Shown in pieces: positions 37,562-41,841 of a stretch of DNA of 52,866 nucleotides. The stretch spans positions 1-52,866 of the forward strand of contig JAKURY010000016.1 in assembly GCA_022452145.1 (NCBI GenBank). The letters are read 5' to 3'. The notes below the pieces were generated by a model. That model was given only the letters and a program-made list of their open reading frames with translations. It did not search any database and was not told where the DNA came from. Position 1 is the first letter of the stretch; each line of letters begins with the position of its first letter. The position numbers and the translations under genes are program-made. The stretch comes from Acidimicrobiales bacterium (GTDB taxonomy: Bacteria > Actinomycetota > Acidimicrobiia > Acidimicrobiales > MedAcidi-G1).

Positions 37562-37567
37562 AACCTA
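37562..37567 (-). promoter_or_regulatory. -10 box TAGGTT overlapping the cimA stop codon
   Basis: TAGGTT begins with the TAG stop of cimA (37567-37565) and lies 8 bases before ATG 37553 of the epimerase. Confidence 0.5.
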
Positions 37568-39196
37568 GGCGTCGGTGTGGAGGATCCCGAAGACCAGCGA
37601 GTCGACGAGGGCCTGCCAGGAGGCCTCGATGATGTTCTCCGAGACGCCGATAGTGGTCCAGGTCTGCTCACCGTTGGTGGTGTCTATGAGCACCCTGGTC
37701 ACCGCTCCGGTCCCCTGGCGGGTCTCCAGCACCCGGACCTTGAAGTCGGTCAGGTGCAGCCTCTCCAGTTGCGGGAAGCTGTCGTCCAGGGCCTTGCGGA
37801 GGGCGGCGTCCAGGGCGTTGACCGGGCCGTTGCCCTCACCTGTGGCTACCATGCGCTCGCCGTCCAGCTGGAGCTTGACGGTTGCCTCCGTCTCGACCTC
37901 CACCGCCACGTCATTCCAGGCCCGGCTCCCGCTACCCGACCGGTGGCCGACGTTGACCGAGAATGACTCCAGGACGAAGTAGTCGTGCGACCAACCCGAG
38001 GCGGCACGCATCAGGAGCTCCAGGGAGGCATCTGCCGCCTCGAAGTGGTAGCCGGCGTACTCGAGTTCCTTCAGGGTCTCCACGATCTCGCCGAGTACCT
38101 CGCCGTCAAGCTCGATACCCAGCTGTTCCGCCTTCAGAGCGATGGTCGAGCGGCCTGACATCTCCGACACCAGGAAGCGGGTGCCGTTGCCCACCAGGCC
38201 CGGGTCGATGTGCTCATAGGCGTCGCTCCGGCGGGCGATGGCGCTGGTGTGCAGGCCGGCCTTGTGGGCGAACGCCGTGGTGCCGACGTAGGGCTGCTGG
38301 GGATCGACGGTGAAGTTGACCAGCTCGGCCACATGGTGGGCCACCGATGTCAGTTCGGCCATCCGACCCTCGGGCAGCGTCTCCACGCCCATCTTGAGGC
38401 TGAGGTTGGCGATGATCGGCACCAGGTCGCAGTTGCCCACCCGTTCCCCGTAGCCGTTGATGGTTCCCTGCACCTGGGTGGCTCCGCCGGCCACCCCGGC
38501 CAGGGCGTTGGCCACCCCGCAGCCGGTGTCGTTGTGGAGGTGCACGCCTACAGCGCAGTCCACGGCGTCTACAACGGCGCGGACCATGGCCTCGACCTGG
38601 TCCGGCAGCGACCCGCCGTTGGTGTCGCACAGCACCAGGCAGTCGGCACCCGCCTCGGCCGCTCCCCGCAGTACCCGTAGCGAGAACTCCGGGTCGTCGC
38701 GGTACCCGTCGAAGAAGTGCTCGGCATCGAAGAACACCTTGCGGCCCCGAGACTTCAGGTACGTGACGGAGTCGGCCACCATGGCCACGCCCTCGTCGAG
38801 GCTGGTTCGCAGCGCCTCGGTCACGTGGTACGCCGAGGCCTTCCCGACTATGCAGACCACGTCGGTCTCCGCCGCCAGCAGGTTGGCCAGGGTCGGGTCC
38901 TCGGCGGCATCACCGTTCACCCTGCGGGTCGACCCGAAGGCCACCAGCTGGGAGCGTTCCAGGGCCAGCTCGCTCCTGGCCCTGGCGAAGAACTCCTCGT
39001 CCTTGGGGTTGGCACCCGGCCAGCCGCCCTCGATGTAGTGCACGCCGAGGCGGTCCAGCTGCTCTGCGATGCGCAACTTGTCCGCGACGGTGAGCGAGAT
39101 GCCCTCCAGTTGGGCGCCGTCGCGCAGCGTCGTGTCGTAGATCTCGACCGCCGCCGGGAGCACGACGGACCGGTCCGCCGACTCAGGCGTCGACAT
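37565..39196 (-). CDS. cimA: (R)-citramalate synthase CimA
   Basis: CimA condenses pyruvate and acetyl-CoA to (R)-citramalate, the entry to threonine-independent isoleucine synthesis. The 543 aa sequence has the HMGL-like domain (EIYDTTLRDGAQLEGISLTVADKL), GGWPGANPKD, the metal site CDTNGG and VHLHNDTG, and VQGTINGYGERVGNCDL. The second half has FAHKAGLHTSAI and a C-terminal LeuA-dimer regulatory domain where isoleucine would bind as feedback inhibitor. The length and the GGWPG motif fit the long CimA type rather than LeuA. ATG 39196 overlaps the end of ilvE by 14 bases. It is the last gene of the leuB-ilvE-cimA operon. Confidence 0.92.
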   Translation of the reverse strand: MSTPESADRSVVLPAAVEIYDTTLRDGAQLEGISLTVADKLRIAEQLDRLGVHYIEGGWPGANPKDEEFFARARSELALERSQLVAFGSTRRVNGDAAEDPTLANLLAAETDVVCIVGKASAYHVTEALRTSLDEGVAMVADSVTYLKSRGRKVFFDAEHFFDGYRDDPEFSLRVLRGAAEAGADCLVLCDTNGGSLPDQVEAMVRAVVDAVDCAVGVHLHNDTGCGVANALAGVAGGATQVQGTINGYGERVGNCDLVPIIANLSLKMGVETLPEGRMAELTSVAHHVAELVNFTVDPQQPYVGTTAFAHKAGLHTSAIARRSDAYEHIDPGLVGNGTRFLVSEMSGRSTIALKAEQLGIELDGEVLGEIVETLKELEYAGYHFEAADASLELLMRAASGWSHDYFVLESFSVNVGHRSGSGSRAWNDVAVEVETEATVKLQLDGERMVATGEGNGPVNALDAALRKALDDSFPQLERLHLTDFKVRVLETRQGTGAVTRVLIDTTNGEQTWTTIGVSENIIEASWQALVDSLVFGILHTDA

Positions 39197-40103
39197 GGTC
39201 GTTCCATTCCGAGTACTCGGGGCGCTGACCACGAACCGCCTGGAAGAAGACCTCCTGGACCTGCCGGGTGATCGGGCCGGGATCACCGATGACGCGGTCG
39301 TCGACGGAACGGATCGGCACCACCTCGGCCGCTGTGCCGGATAGGAAGGCCTCGTCGGCCGTGTATAGGTCGCTGCGGAGGAGGTTTCCCTGGACGTAGG
39401 GGATCCCGAGGTCCCCTGCGATGCGCCGGACGCAGTCCTGTGTGATGCCCGCCAGGGCACCGGCGCTTGTCGGCGGCGTCACGATGGTTCCGTCACGGAC
39501 CACGAACAGGTTCTCACCGGTGCACTCCGAGACGTGGCCCTGTGGCGACAGGAGGATGGCCTCGTCGTAGCCGGCCTTCACGGCCTGCACCTTGGCCATC
39601 TGGGAGTTGATGTAGTGGCCGCATCCCTTGGCCGCCGGCGGCATGGCGTTCGGGTCGTGGCGCTGCCAGGACGAGATCATCATGTCGACGCCAGTGGTCA
39701 GGCCCTCGTCGCCGAGATAGGTCCCCCACGGCCAGGTCGCGATCGACACGTCGACCTTGCAGGGCAGCGGGTTGAGGCCCATCTCGCCGTAGCCGAGGTA
39801 CACCAGCGGGCGGATGTAGCAGGAGAGGTGTCCGTTCACCCCGACGGTGTCCCTTGTCGCCGTGACCAGCTCGTCGACCGAGTACGGAATATCCAGGAAG
39901 AGGATCTTGGATGAACGGAAGAGCCGTTCTATGTGGTCGCGGAGCCGGAACACGGCCGGGCCGCGGTCGGTCTCGTACGCGCGTATGCCCTCAAACACGC
40001 CGTTGCCGTAGTGCAGCGTATGGGTCAGCACGTGGATCGTGGCGTCGTCCCAGTCGACGAGCTCGCCGTTCATCCAGATCTTGGAGGACTTCTCGATCGG
40101 CAT
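39183..40103 (-). CDS. ilvE: Branched-chain amino acid aminotransferase IlvE
   Basis: A 306 aa class IV PLP aminotransferase, which transfers amino groups to the keto acids of isoleucine, leucine and valine. Signature segments are KIWMNGELVDWDDATIHVLTHTLHYGNGVFEGIRAYE, IRPLVYLGYGEMGLNP, AAKGCGHYINSQMAK with the likely PLP lysine, GYDEAILLSPQGHVSECTGENLFVV and EAFLSGTAAEVVPI. ATG 40103 follows AAGGAACCGAG, a normal ribosome site. It lies 43 bases after leuB and overlaps cimA, so the three form one operon. Confidence 0.95.
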   Translation of the reverse strand: MPIEKSSKIWMNGELVDWDDATIHVLTHTLHYGNGVFEGIRAYETDRGPAVFRLRDHIERLFRSSKILFLDIPYSVDELVTATRDTVGVNGHLSCYIRPLVYLGYGEMGLNPLPCKVDVSIATWPWGTYLGDEGLTTGVDMMISSWQRHDPNAMPPAAKGCGHYINSQMAKVQAVKAGYDEAILLSPQGHVSECTGENLFVVRDGTIVTPPTSAGALAGITQDCVRRIAGDLGIPYVQGNLLRSDLYTADEAFLSGTAAEVVPIRSVDDRVIGDPGPITRQVQEVFFQAVRGQRPEYSEWNDHVDA

Positions 40104-40146: not shown

Positions 40147-41151
40147 TCAGGTCTCGTGTCGGCGGTCGGCCCGGGACACCAGGGCGGCGACGGCATCCCC
40201 GATGGCCGTGGTCCCCTCGATGTCTGTGGACGGATCGGCACAGGCCGCCTCGATGCGCGCCGCTGCTTCGGGCTCCCCGAGGAAATCCAGCATCATGGCC
40301 CCGGAGAGGATGGCCGCCTTCGGGTTGGCGAGCCCGAGGCCGGCGATGTCAGGCGCCGAGCCGTGGACCGGTTCGAACATCGACGGGCCGGTGCGGTCCG
40401 GGTTCAGGTTGGCCGACGAGGCCAACCCGATGCCACCGGAGATGGCCCCGCCCAGGTCGGTGAGGATGTCGCCGAACAGGTTGTCGGTGACGATGACGTC
40501 GTACTGCTGGGGTGACTGCACGAAGTAGATGCAGGCCGCATCGACGTGGTTGTAGGCCGTCTCCACCTCGGGGTACTCGGCGGCCACCTCGTTGAAGGTC
40601 CGTTCCCAGAGGTCGCCGGCGAACGTCAGCACGTTGGTCTTGTGTACCAGGGTGAGGTGCCGACGACTGGTCATGGCCAGGTCGAACGAGTACCGGATGA
40701 CCCGCTCGACGCCGTGTCGGGTGTTGACCGAGCCCTGGGTGGCGATCTCGTGGGGGGTGCCACGACGTAGGAAGCCGCCCTCGCCGGCGTACGTCCCCTC
40801 GGTGTTCTCGCGCACGACCCGGAAGTCGATGCCGTCGGTCGGATGCGCGAACGGCCGGAGGTTGACGTAGAGGTCGAGGGCGAATCGCATCTTGAGGAGC
40901 AGGCCGCGCTCGATGACACCAGGAGGCACCTCGGGGGTCCCGACGGCGCCAAGGTAGAGGGCGTCCAGGGAGCGCCACTCCTCGATGGTCTCGTCCGGCA
41001 GCACGGTGCCGTCACGTCCGTAGCGAGCGCCACCCAGGTCGTATCCGACCGTCTCGAGCTCGACCCCCGCCGCGCCGATCACCTTCAGGCCCTCGGCGAT
41101 GACATCGGGCCCGATGCCGTCGCCGCCGATGATGCCTATGCGGTGGGTCAC
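40147..41151 (-). CDS. leuB: 3-isopropylmalate dehydrogenase LeuB
   Basis: A 334 aa NAD-dependent decarboxylating dehydrogenase. The family motifs are [45 protein letters not shown], the signature [20 protein letters not shown] and [14 protein letters not shown]. LeuB oxidises 3-isopropylmalate for leucine; the same enzyme acts on 3-methylmalate in the citramalate route to isoleucine, which suits its place ahead of ilvE and cimA. GTG 41151 has AGGAG 9 bases upstream. The gene is preceded by a leader peptide and attenuator (41182-41284), so its expression is probably controlled by isoleucine supply. Confidence 0.95.
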
Positions 41152-41181
41152 GACTGGATTCTCCTGATGGGGATGGGAACG

Positions 41182-41207
41182 AAAAAACCGTCCACCGAGG
41201 TGGACGG
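41182..41207 (-). terminator. Attenuator terminator upstream of leuB
   Basis: On the minus strand CCGTCCAC and GTGGACGG form a perfect eight-base-pair stem (41207-41188) around loop CTCG, followed by TTTTTT (41187-41182). It lies before, not after, a gene on its strand, with the leuB ribosome site 17 bases further. This is a canonical intrinsic terminator in leader position. Confidence 0.85.
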
Positions 41208-41212
41208 TCGGG

Positions 41213-41236
41213 GCGCACACCTGAGGTGGTGTGCGC
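41213..41236 (-). promoter_or_regulatory. Leader hairpin (anti-antiterminator) at the leader-peptide stop
   Basis: GCGCACACC pairs perfectly with GGTGTGCGC around loop ACCTCA. Its first base is the last base of the leader stop codon, so a ribosome held at the isoleucine codons would cover its 5' arm. The 3' arm (AGGTG, then GCG) can instead pair with CACCT and CG(T) in the terminator 5' arm, a possible antiterminator. Confidence 0.7.
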
Positions 41237-41271
41237 TAGCCAATGATGATCACCTGCGGTCGGAAGGTCAC
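41236..41271 (-). CDS. Leader peptide MTFRPQVIIIG of the leuB-ilvE-cimA operon
   Basis: An 11-residue ORF, starting at GTG 41271 and ending TAG 41238-41236. The peptide MTFRPQVIIIG holds one Val and three consecutive Ile codons (ATC, ATC, ATT) just before the Gly and the stop. It is followed at once by the leader hairpin and then the terminator. The operon downstream makes isoleucine through citramalate, so the codon content matches the end product, as in ribosome-mediated attenuation of amino acid operons. The GTG lies 7 bases after TACACT, so it would be translated from a leaderless mRNA. The whole is well supported by layout; the regulation itself is inferred. Confidence 0.7.
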   Translation of the reverse strand: MTFRPQVIIIG

Positions 41272-41278
41272 GTAGCGA

Positions 41279-41309
41279 AGTGTACCAAGCACCCCCGGGG
41301 CCCAATCAA
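41279..41309 (-). promoter_or_regulatory. Promoter of the leader-leuB-ilvE-cimA operon
   Basis: TACACT (41284-41279) is the -10 box, 7 bases before the leader-peptide GTG. TTGATT (41309-41304) is a possible -35 box at 19 bases, slightly longer than ideal. Confidence 0.5.
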
Positions 41310-41367: not shown

Positions 41368-41841
41368 ATGGCCGAAGCACAGCAGCTCTCCCAGGAGGCC
41401 CACAACCGGCTCGTTGCCGAGTTCCAGGACCTCACGACACGTGGACGCATCGACATCGCCCGCAAGATCGAGACGGCCCGCGAGCTCGGCGACCTCTCCG
41501 AGAACGGCGACTACCACGCCGCCAAGGAGGAGCAGGGCAAGATGGAGGGCCGGATAATGCAGCTAGAGAGCATCCTGGAGAACTCCGAGATCGTCGAGAT
41601 TGCCACCGGCACCGTCGACCTGGTGGCACCGGGAACCGTGGTGGCCATCGTCTTCGAGGGTGACGACGAACCGGAGCGCATGCTGGTCGGCTCCATCGAG
41701 GAGAAGCGCGACGACGTGGGCGTCGTGTCGCCGGGTTCACCCCTGGGCGAGGCCCTGCTGGGCGCGGCGGTCGGCGACACGGTCTCCTTCGAGGCGCCCG
41801 GGGGCACCCTGGCCGTCGAGGTCGTGGCCATAGAACGGTGA
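41368..41841 (+). CDS. greA: Transcription elongation factor GreA
   Basis: GreA rescues backtracked RNA polymerase by stimulating transcript cleavage. The 157 aa sequence has the N-terminal coiled coil with RKIETARELGDLSENGDYHAAKEEQGKMEGRI, whose acidic tip (DLSENGD) reaches the polymerase active site, then the C-terminal FKBP-like domain (VDLVAPGTVVAIVFEGDDEPERMLVGS, SPGSPLGEALLGAAVGDTV). The length is normal. ATG 41368 is leaderless after TACCCT. The stop overlaps the ATG of the hydrolase gene. Confidence 0.96.
   Translation: MAEAQQLSQEAHNRLVAEFQDLTTRGRIDIARKIETARELGDLSENGDYHAAKEEQGKMEGRIMQLESILENSEIVEIATGTVDLVAPGTVVAIVFEGDDEPERMLVGSIEEKRDDVGVVSPGSPLGEALLGAAVGDTVSFEAPGGTLAVEVVAIER

Follow-up and report, generated by a model that had tools for sequence, protein, structure and literature searches.

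A very probable Val/Ile-codon leader-peptide attenuator of leuB-ilvE-cimA and its product-matched relatives in Acidimicrobiia

The trp, leu and ilv attenuators of Escherichia coli are composed of a leader peptide with control codons inside segment 1, an intrinsic terminator and an antiterminator that is mutually exclusive with the terminator. The leader described here shares the leader peptide, the control codons and the terminator; different from the E. coli systems, neither a mutually exclusive antiterminator nor codons within segment 1 were found.

Attenuators of branched-chain amino acid (BCAA) genes are on record in Actinobacteria (PMC1262725, PMC11857589, PMC13236596, PMC8079986, PMC2965389 and PMC4833913, each in its accessible part). 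In Mycobacterium tuberculosis, the accessible part of the ilvB1NC account (PMC13236596) describes a leader ORF that has LVVI as its regulatory codons, four in number, an intrinsic terminator that is read through on BCAA shortage, and an antiterminator that belongs to the stalled state and is lost at the stop codon; our locus is probably alike in these respects, and we place its first hairpin (H1) in the starved state, matching the placement by those authors. Different from ilvB1NC, where the terminator and the antiterminator are mutually exclusive, H1 and the terminator (T) do not overlap here, and family members with product-matched boxes also precede leuB-ilvE-cimA, cimA and leuA. Like our leader, Corynebacterium glutamicum ilvBNC has a near-leaderless leader peptide with BCAA codons (LVVV) and a terminator ahead of an ilv operon; as far as the accessible text goes (PMC11857589), it differs in that its antiterminator overlaps the terminator base, its leader continues six codons beyond LVVV, and an extra hairpin covers the ribosome landing site. 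The Streptomyces leuA, leuS and ilvBHC leaders are also leaderless peptides with LLLL, LLL or ILVL runs, but with at least four codons between run and stop; no typical terminator is present in the leuA leader, whose region was described as a pseudoknot (LEU element), and the accessible parts of these accounts (PMC8079986 and PMC1262725) contain no leuB-cimA attenuator.

Searches of the open-access literature, in which few subscription journals and preprints are covered, found no paper on attenuators in Acidimicrobi* and no prior work on a leuB-cimA attenuator. As judged from the comparisons below, the element very probably is a ribosome-mediated transcription attenuator of leuB-ilvE-cimA. It appears to be of a known kind, that of the actinobacterial BCAA attenuators; what appears new is that its two hairpins lie side by side, do not overlap and are not accompanied by a conserved antiterminator.

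The leader and the operon behind it

The window, which is the whole stretch of DNA analysed, is 52,866 nt in length (contig JAKURY010000016.1, from an Acidimicrobiales bacterium). Its minus strand carries, at 41309–41182, a promoter, an 11-codon leader ORF, hairpin H1 and a terminator with a T6 run, which lies 30 nt ahead of leuB (Table 1). leuB starts with GTG and has the Shine-Dalgarno (SD) sequence AGGAG at 41165–41161. The codons of the leader ORF are GTG ACC TTC CGA CCG CAG GTG ATC ATC ATT GGC TAG (41271–41236). H1 reads GCGCACACC-ACCTCA-GGTGTGCGC (41236–41213) and is separated by CCC from T, which reads GACCGTCCACCTCGGTGGACGGTT (41209–41186, both on the minus strand). The first-pass annotation had reported the promoter, the MTFRPQVIIIG ORF and two hairpins ahead of the leuB ribosome site, and by direct reading all of them are real. 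Both hairpins are present and H1 is of 9 bp as it had stated; however, terminator prediction gave a stem of 10 pairs (one G-T) instead of 8, and H1 begins from the last base of the stop codon. The gene order leuB-ilvE-cimA was confirmed by NCBIfam, and cimA and ilvE overlap by 14 nt.

Table 1. Features of the leader, its operon and the two sister leaders of the same genome
Feature	Coordinates	Strand	Basis and remarks
-35-like element TTGATT	41304..41309	-	Direct reading; 19-nt spacer to -10
-10 element TACACT	41279..41284	-	Direct reading; 7 nt ahead of leader GTG
Leader ORF MTFRPQVIIIG, stop TAG	41236..41271	-	Direct reading; start GTG at 41271
Control box GTG ATC ATC ATT (Val-Ile-Ile-Ile), codons -5 to -2 from stop	41242..41253	-	Direct reading
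Hairpin H1, 9 bp, 6-nt loop	41213..41236	-	5' arm from G of stop codon
Intrinsic terminator T, 9–10 bp	41186..41209	-	3 nt past H1; T run to 41182
leuB, 3-isopropylmalate dehydrogenase (334 aa)	40147..41151	-	NCBIfam NF002898, 475 bits, cut-off 393
ilvE, branched-chain aminotransferase	39183..40103	-	NCBIfam TIGR01122, 410 bits, cut-off 246; start MPIEKSS by reading
cimA, citramalate synthase	37565..39196	-	NCBIfam TIGR00977, 659 bits, cut-off 450; start MSTPES by reading
greA, divergent neighbour	41368..41841	+	NCBIfam TIGR01462
ilvB leader L428, VAVL box, same genome	G000:C4:33293-33367
leuA leader L429, LLLL box, same genome	G000:C1:15089-15177

With the -10 element so close to the start codon, the leader mRNA is probably leaderless. 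The promoter scan of the window called no promoter here, because it allows spacers of 16–18 nt. The leader RNA (96 nt) has a folding energy of -42.7 kcal/mol (z = -4.78), and none of 200 shuffles was equally stable; folding of the leader had been proposed as a check, and this stability is above chance. H1 and T coexist in the computed fold. Rfam at gathering scores matched only one tRNA elsewhere in the window and nothing on the leader, and gave no match in nine related loci. A permissive Rfam search returned the Hrs13 sRNA (21.7 bits, cut-off 52, E 0.0026) at 41181–41282 of the minus strand, which is probably chance.

Conservation of the element and of its codon box

LeuB was found in 56 of 61 genomes, our own genome counted. 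Among 50 leuB upstream regions inspected, 41 keep the attenuator element (38 by a scripted leader rule and three, L015, L038 and L049, by eye) and nine are without it; in two of those nine genomes it precedes cimA. Relatives lacking the codons or hairpins had been named as evidence that would speak against the attenuator, and the large majority retain them. L049 has both hairpins with AVVTSS ahead of the stop. All three leaders seen by eye were left out of the codon counts; at -2, Ile is found in L015 and L038 but not in L049.

The two stems were analysed in A1, an alignment of 37 leuB leaders, in which 98.6% of the H1 and T cells pair. Four pairs have changed on both sides, which one of 500 shuffles reached, and the covariation score was attained by no shuffle; in number of pair types A1 does not exceed the shuffles. 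Variation concentrates in the upper part of H1, while lower H1 (GCGCAC/GUGCGC) and lower T (ACCGUCC/GGGCGGU) are nearly invariant. Compensatory changes thus keep both stems, as the alignment check of the first-pass annotation had anticipated. The H1 and T arms also co-vary in all four gene classes (leuB, cimA, ilvB and leuA).

Covariance model R1 has matches in 225 of 397 genomes of the order and in 168 of 296 genomes of the class; under the strict filters applied, the other 172 genomes of the order gave none. Among the matches listed, 70 loci were chosen, of which 65 lie directly before leuB, three before cimA and two at contig ends; ilvE or cimA follows leuB wherever the fetched stretch was long enough. 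Since R1 contains the codon-box columns, the box was re-examined in a set that is blind to it, obtained by a pattern scan of named genomes that begins at the stop codon. Among its 77 loci, 74 lie ahead of leuB and one (L276) at a contig end. The other two, L241 (Pseudonocardiaceae) and L284 (Mycobacterium), have neither the gene nor the box and were rejected as chance. The titles of the blind set are mostly Acidimicrobiia or unassigned Actinobacteria metagenome-assembled genomes (MAGs), including Candidatus Microthrix and one MAG labelled Ferrithrix thermotolerans; L248 and L256 are labelled Acidobacteria, yet have the same leader and leuB. One MAG (G326) has two leuB-ilvE loci, L122 and L123, each with an attenuator; contamination of the MAG is possible.

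The geometry is also kept. In a free search, H1 begins inside the stop codon in 101 of 108 leuB leaders; in a search that tries the last stop base first, it begins there in 119/138 leuB, 38/43 ilvB, 24/29 leuA and 9/10 cimA leaders. The gap between H1 and T is 0–6 nt in all but one of 220 leaders, with up to 14 nt permitted; it was taken from the stop-base-first search, the free terminator finder having sometimes fused H1 with T. The onset of T is 25–39 nt from the first stop base, with class medians of 29–32 nt, and the U tracts of several T hairpins are poor. TANNNT is found 4–9 nt ahead of an in-frame start in 83 of 139 leuB leaders, compared to 8, 2 and 2 of 139 in shifted windows. Among those 83, 28 have TTGA[CT] at a spacer of exactly 19 (15–21 were tried), and none at the control spacers of 28–34. 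At the same place, TANNNT occurs in 8/42 ilvB, 9/30 leuA and 2/10 cimA leaders; due to these low counts, leuB is the only class in which a leaderless start has good support. Judged from the aligned leaders, the chassis is a (probably leaderless) ORF, a BCAA box at -5 to -2, one codon, the stop, H1, 0–6 nt and T.

Before counting of codons, L348, L350–L353, L241 and L284 (chance), L012 (the same as L011) and identical leaders were dropped, which reduced 237 entries to 193. The leuB box, in 139 distinct leaders, contains 304 Ile, 160 Val and 5 Leu codons. Codons for Ile, Leu or Val (ILV) occupy -5 to -2 in 117, 111, 104 and 137 of these leaders, compared to 19 at -6 and 19 at -1. Ile is at -2 in 137 of the 139, and in 73 of 73 in the blind leuB set, so the Ile codons are kept across relatives as expected. 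The first-pass annotation had called the leader an Ile sensor. The Ile codons and their agreement with the end product stand; a sensor of Ile alone does not, the box being one of Val and Ile.

The boxes of the other gene classes are different. In ten cimA leaders we counted 39 Ile codons, with no Leu or Val; the boxes of 43 ilvB leaders hold 20 Ile, 53 Leu and 93 Val codons. Outside the ilvB box, ILV codons are found at -1 in 2/43 and at -6 in 26/43 leaders, so that this box is often of five codons. GTA makes up 64 of the 93 Val codons of the ilvB boxes, perhaps a slow codon chosen for sensing. One ilvB leader, L217, whose contig ends, was counted as such from leader likeness alone; the ilvB genes of L201–L240 were named from the N-terminus, NCBIfam having been run on L201 (first 110 residues) and on the copy of our own genome. 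Leu is depleted in leuB compared to ilvB boxes (Fisher p = 2e-28); p values are nominal, because the sequences are related and their independence is overstated.

For leuA, a gene-first search gave matches in 61 of 118 genomes, and 30 loci were examined. A Leu box with a strong fold lies upstream in 29 of them, and the remaining locus has almost no upstream sequence; Leu is found in 19, 29, 29 and 30 of the 30 leaders at -5 to -2. Because this set was picked by a rule of at least three Leu codons in four, a control with eleven other amino acids was run: each was found in 0/30 upstream regions on the coding strand and in at most 1/30 on the other strand. The strongest evidence for the predicted attenuator is that the box tracks the product: Val/Ile for leuB, Ile for cimA, Leu/Val/Ile for ilvB and Leu for leuA.

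Two other readings bear on these data. The leuB leaders end in a short conserved C-terminal V-x-x-I-x-stop, as would be expected if the nascent peptide arrested the ribosome and sensed free amino acids instead of tRNA starvation. However, the N-terminal residues vary freely and the identity of the box follows the pathway across the four gene classes, which is what codons, and not a single arrest motif, would give; we consider such arrest very improbable. Even less credit is given to a plain insulating terminator behind a meaningless short ORF, since greA is divergent and the minus-strand terminator ends no upstream gene, and the codon box and its spacing are conserved over the class. Taken together, the conserved box, both stems and the product match support the claim of the first-pass annotation that a leader-peptide transcription attenuator precedes leuB-ilvE-cimA. 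As in known attenuators, the leader ORF has a short product-matched codon run, and on sequence grounds an intrinsic terminator lies between the leader and the first structural gene.

Pairing of the hairpins and position of the ribosome

In this genome, the H1 3' arm (AGGUG.GCG) can pair with the T 5' arm (CGU.CACCU) at about -8 kcal/mol, compared to -18 for T; as a duplex, the two arms reach -10.1. In classical four-segment attenuation, which the first-pass annotation had invoked, a stalled ribosome would block H1 and this pairing would take apart the terminator. In A1, the seven pairs between arm 2 and arm 3 are formable in 91.3% of the cells, compared to 38–68% in slid versions, but 54 of 500 shuffles attain that fraction of pairs; 24 of 500 attain the covariation score, and 10 of 500 have four cells changed on both sides. 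Across classes the support is lost. Pairing of cognate arms is no stronger than that of non-cognate ones (differences of +0.2 in leuB, +0.4 in cimA, +0.2 in ilvB and +0.6 kcal/mol in leuA) and no better within than between gene classes, although H1 and T pass both tests; in ilvB leaders, the duplex of the two arms is weak (mean -2.7). The region exposed by a stalled ribosome folds about as shuffles do (mean z 0.03 in leuB, -0.43 in cimA and 0.44 in ilvB); the mean z is -0.97 in leuA, where mostly the upper part of H1 folds. In leuB, the terminator is stronger by 8–10 kcal/mol. The switch step as first proposed is therefore formable here, but no conserved arm 2:arm 3 antiterminator was found across the four gene classes.

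A wider comparison of segment pairs covered eleven combinations (leader with the four arms, loop with two arms, 1:3, 2:3, 2:4, and two arms with the downstream tail), plus 1:4. No base-paired antiterminator emerged from them in leuB, ilvB and leuA, where the mean ranks of the eleven are 0.44–0.56 (0.5 meaning none); in cimA, with ten leaders only, there are weak leanings (mean rank 0.34 for leader with arm 1 and 0.39 for leader with arm 4). Because invariant bases give no covariation signal, an all-invariant pairing within leuB escapes the cognate test; the cross-class comparison argues against a pairing made only of leuB-invariant bases.

The position of the box was also considered. In the classical arrangement control codons lie inside or overlap the 5' arm of the first hairpin; here the box ends 5 nt before H1, a spacer that resembles the one separating the slippery site from the stem in frameshift signals. 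A ribosome usually protects RNA up to about 15 nt beyond the start of its P-site codon. By this footprint, an A site at -5, -4, -3 or -2 puts the ribosome edge at -3, 0, +3 or +6, with the first base of the stop as reference; an A site at the stop puts it at +12. H1 may thus remain folded ahead of a ribosome waiting at any of the box codons, and may be melted only by the steps to -1 and to the stop. The codon at -1, where stalling would best block H1, is at background and is not a box position, which speaks against the classical switch, whereas conservation within the box is highest at -2, which fits it. The placement of the box suggests that H1 forms during stalling and melts at the stop, a better fit than a stalled ribosome that blocks H1. 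For M. tuberculosis ilvB1, the accessible part of the account uses a codon-centred occlusion of 26 nt (PMC13236596), and with this value H1 would be partly covered once the ribosome stands at -3 or -2. Owing to this wider occlusion and to the most conserved -2, the argument from the position of H1 is suggestive only. On balance, we regard classical four-segment attenuation as rather unlikely.

In the very probable attenuation by the ribosome, charged Ile- and Val-tRNA would let the ribosome run on to the stop codon, and transcription would terminate at T; with either tRNA in short supply, the ribosome would stall in the box and the polymerase would read into leuB-ilvE-cimA. For the switch itself we favour, more tentatively and at a little under even confidence, a mechanism in which no base-paired antiterminator takes part and the folded H1 would hinder T sterically. 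Stalling in the box would leave H1 folded directly ahead, whereas a ribosome at the stop would melt H1, so that T would be free to form. As H1 and T share no base and lie 0–6 nt apart, we conjecture that the folded H1, either unaided or helped by the bulk of the ribosome, would prevent T from forming inside the RNA exit channel of the polymerase.

The fixed distance between stop and T would also suit a switch by ribosome proximity, similar to pyrBI or ampC, in which the stalled ribosome with H1 would crowd the polymerase or NusG and H1 would set the distance; the very short leader and the probable leaderless start favour the tight coupling that this needs. However, by the footprint above, about 18 nt of RNA would be left between the ribosome edge and T even at the stop, and we judge this switch unlikely. 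If steric hindrance by H1 is right, Actinomycetota may possess a new mechanistic class, in which a stop-anchored hairpin acts by proximity as a non-overlapping antiterminator and one chassis is re-addressed by its box to Leu, Ile, Val/Ile or all three; we offer this class as possible, with confidence well short of even.

Sister leaders and related loci

Our own genome has three such leaders, with the boxes VIII (leuB), VAVL (ilvB) and LLLL (leuA), the genes being assigned by NCBIfam. Forty second or weak R1 matches were fetched, and these belong to ilvB (28, one by leader likeness only), cimA (7), leuB (4) and leuA (1). A scan for a common H1, with matches in 63 of 148 genomes, gave, among 20 loci newly fetched, 15 ilvB leaders and five chance hits. 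The leaders form a natural series: one RNA plan is combined with Leu, Ile, Val/Ile or mixed boxes, and three members of the series stand in one genome. They also suggest that LeuB is here regulated alongside CimA, in the role of an Ile/Val enzyme, and they pose the question of how a terminator is switched by a leader without a conserved competing fold.

Model R2, built from 26 ilvB leaders, has matches in 70 of 296 genomes across the phylum. Among 34 matched loci read, 23 are outside the class: 14 ilvB, three cimA, one leuA, one leuS, one contig end and three without a recognised BCAA gene. Five of the 14 ilvB loci outside the class lie about 500 nt upstream, and L447 is without a clear box and stop. 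Boxes that do not end at -2 were seen in L417, L425 and L440 outside the class, and L443 and L444 within the class are also off-rule.

Two further genes of the order were searched. Within up to 600 nt upstream of trpE (30 loci; 39 genomes with a match), there is no stop with two Trp codons in the preceding nine. Upstream of leuS, 26 loci of the order (two with less than 200 nt upstream) showed no Leu box with a strong fold; four further leuS loci matched only internally and fell outside the scan. In a genome from a different class within the phylum, one leader of the same plan (TLLLT, L436; also L435, where the contig ends) stands before leuS. At L420 (G676:C11:7733-7814), a VLLIT leader with both hairpins lies ahead of a 92-aa ORF that is not a recognised BCAA gene. 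In leuA leaders, for example L369 and L385, the terminator 3' arm is AGGAGG, a perfect SD sequence, and the leuA start is at least 90 nt past the leader stop.
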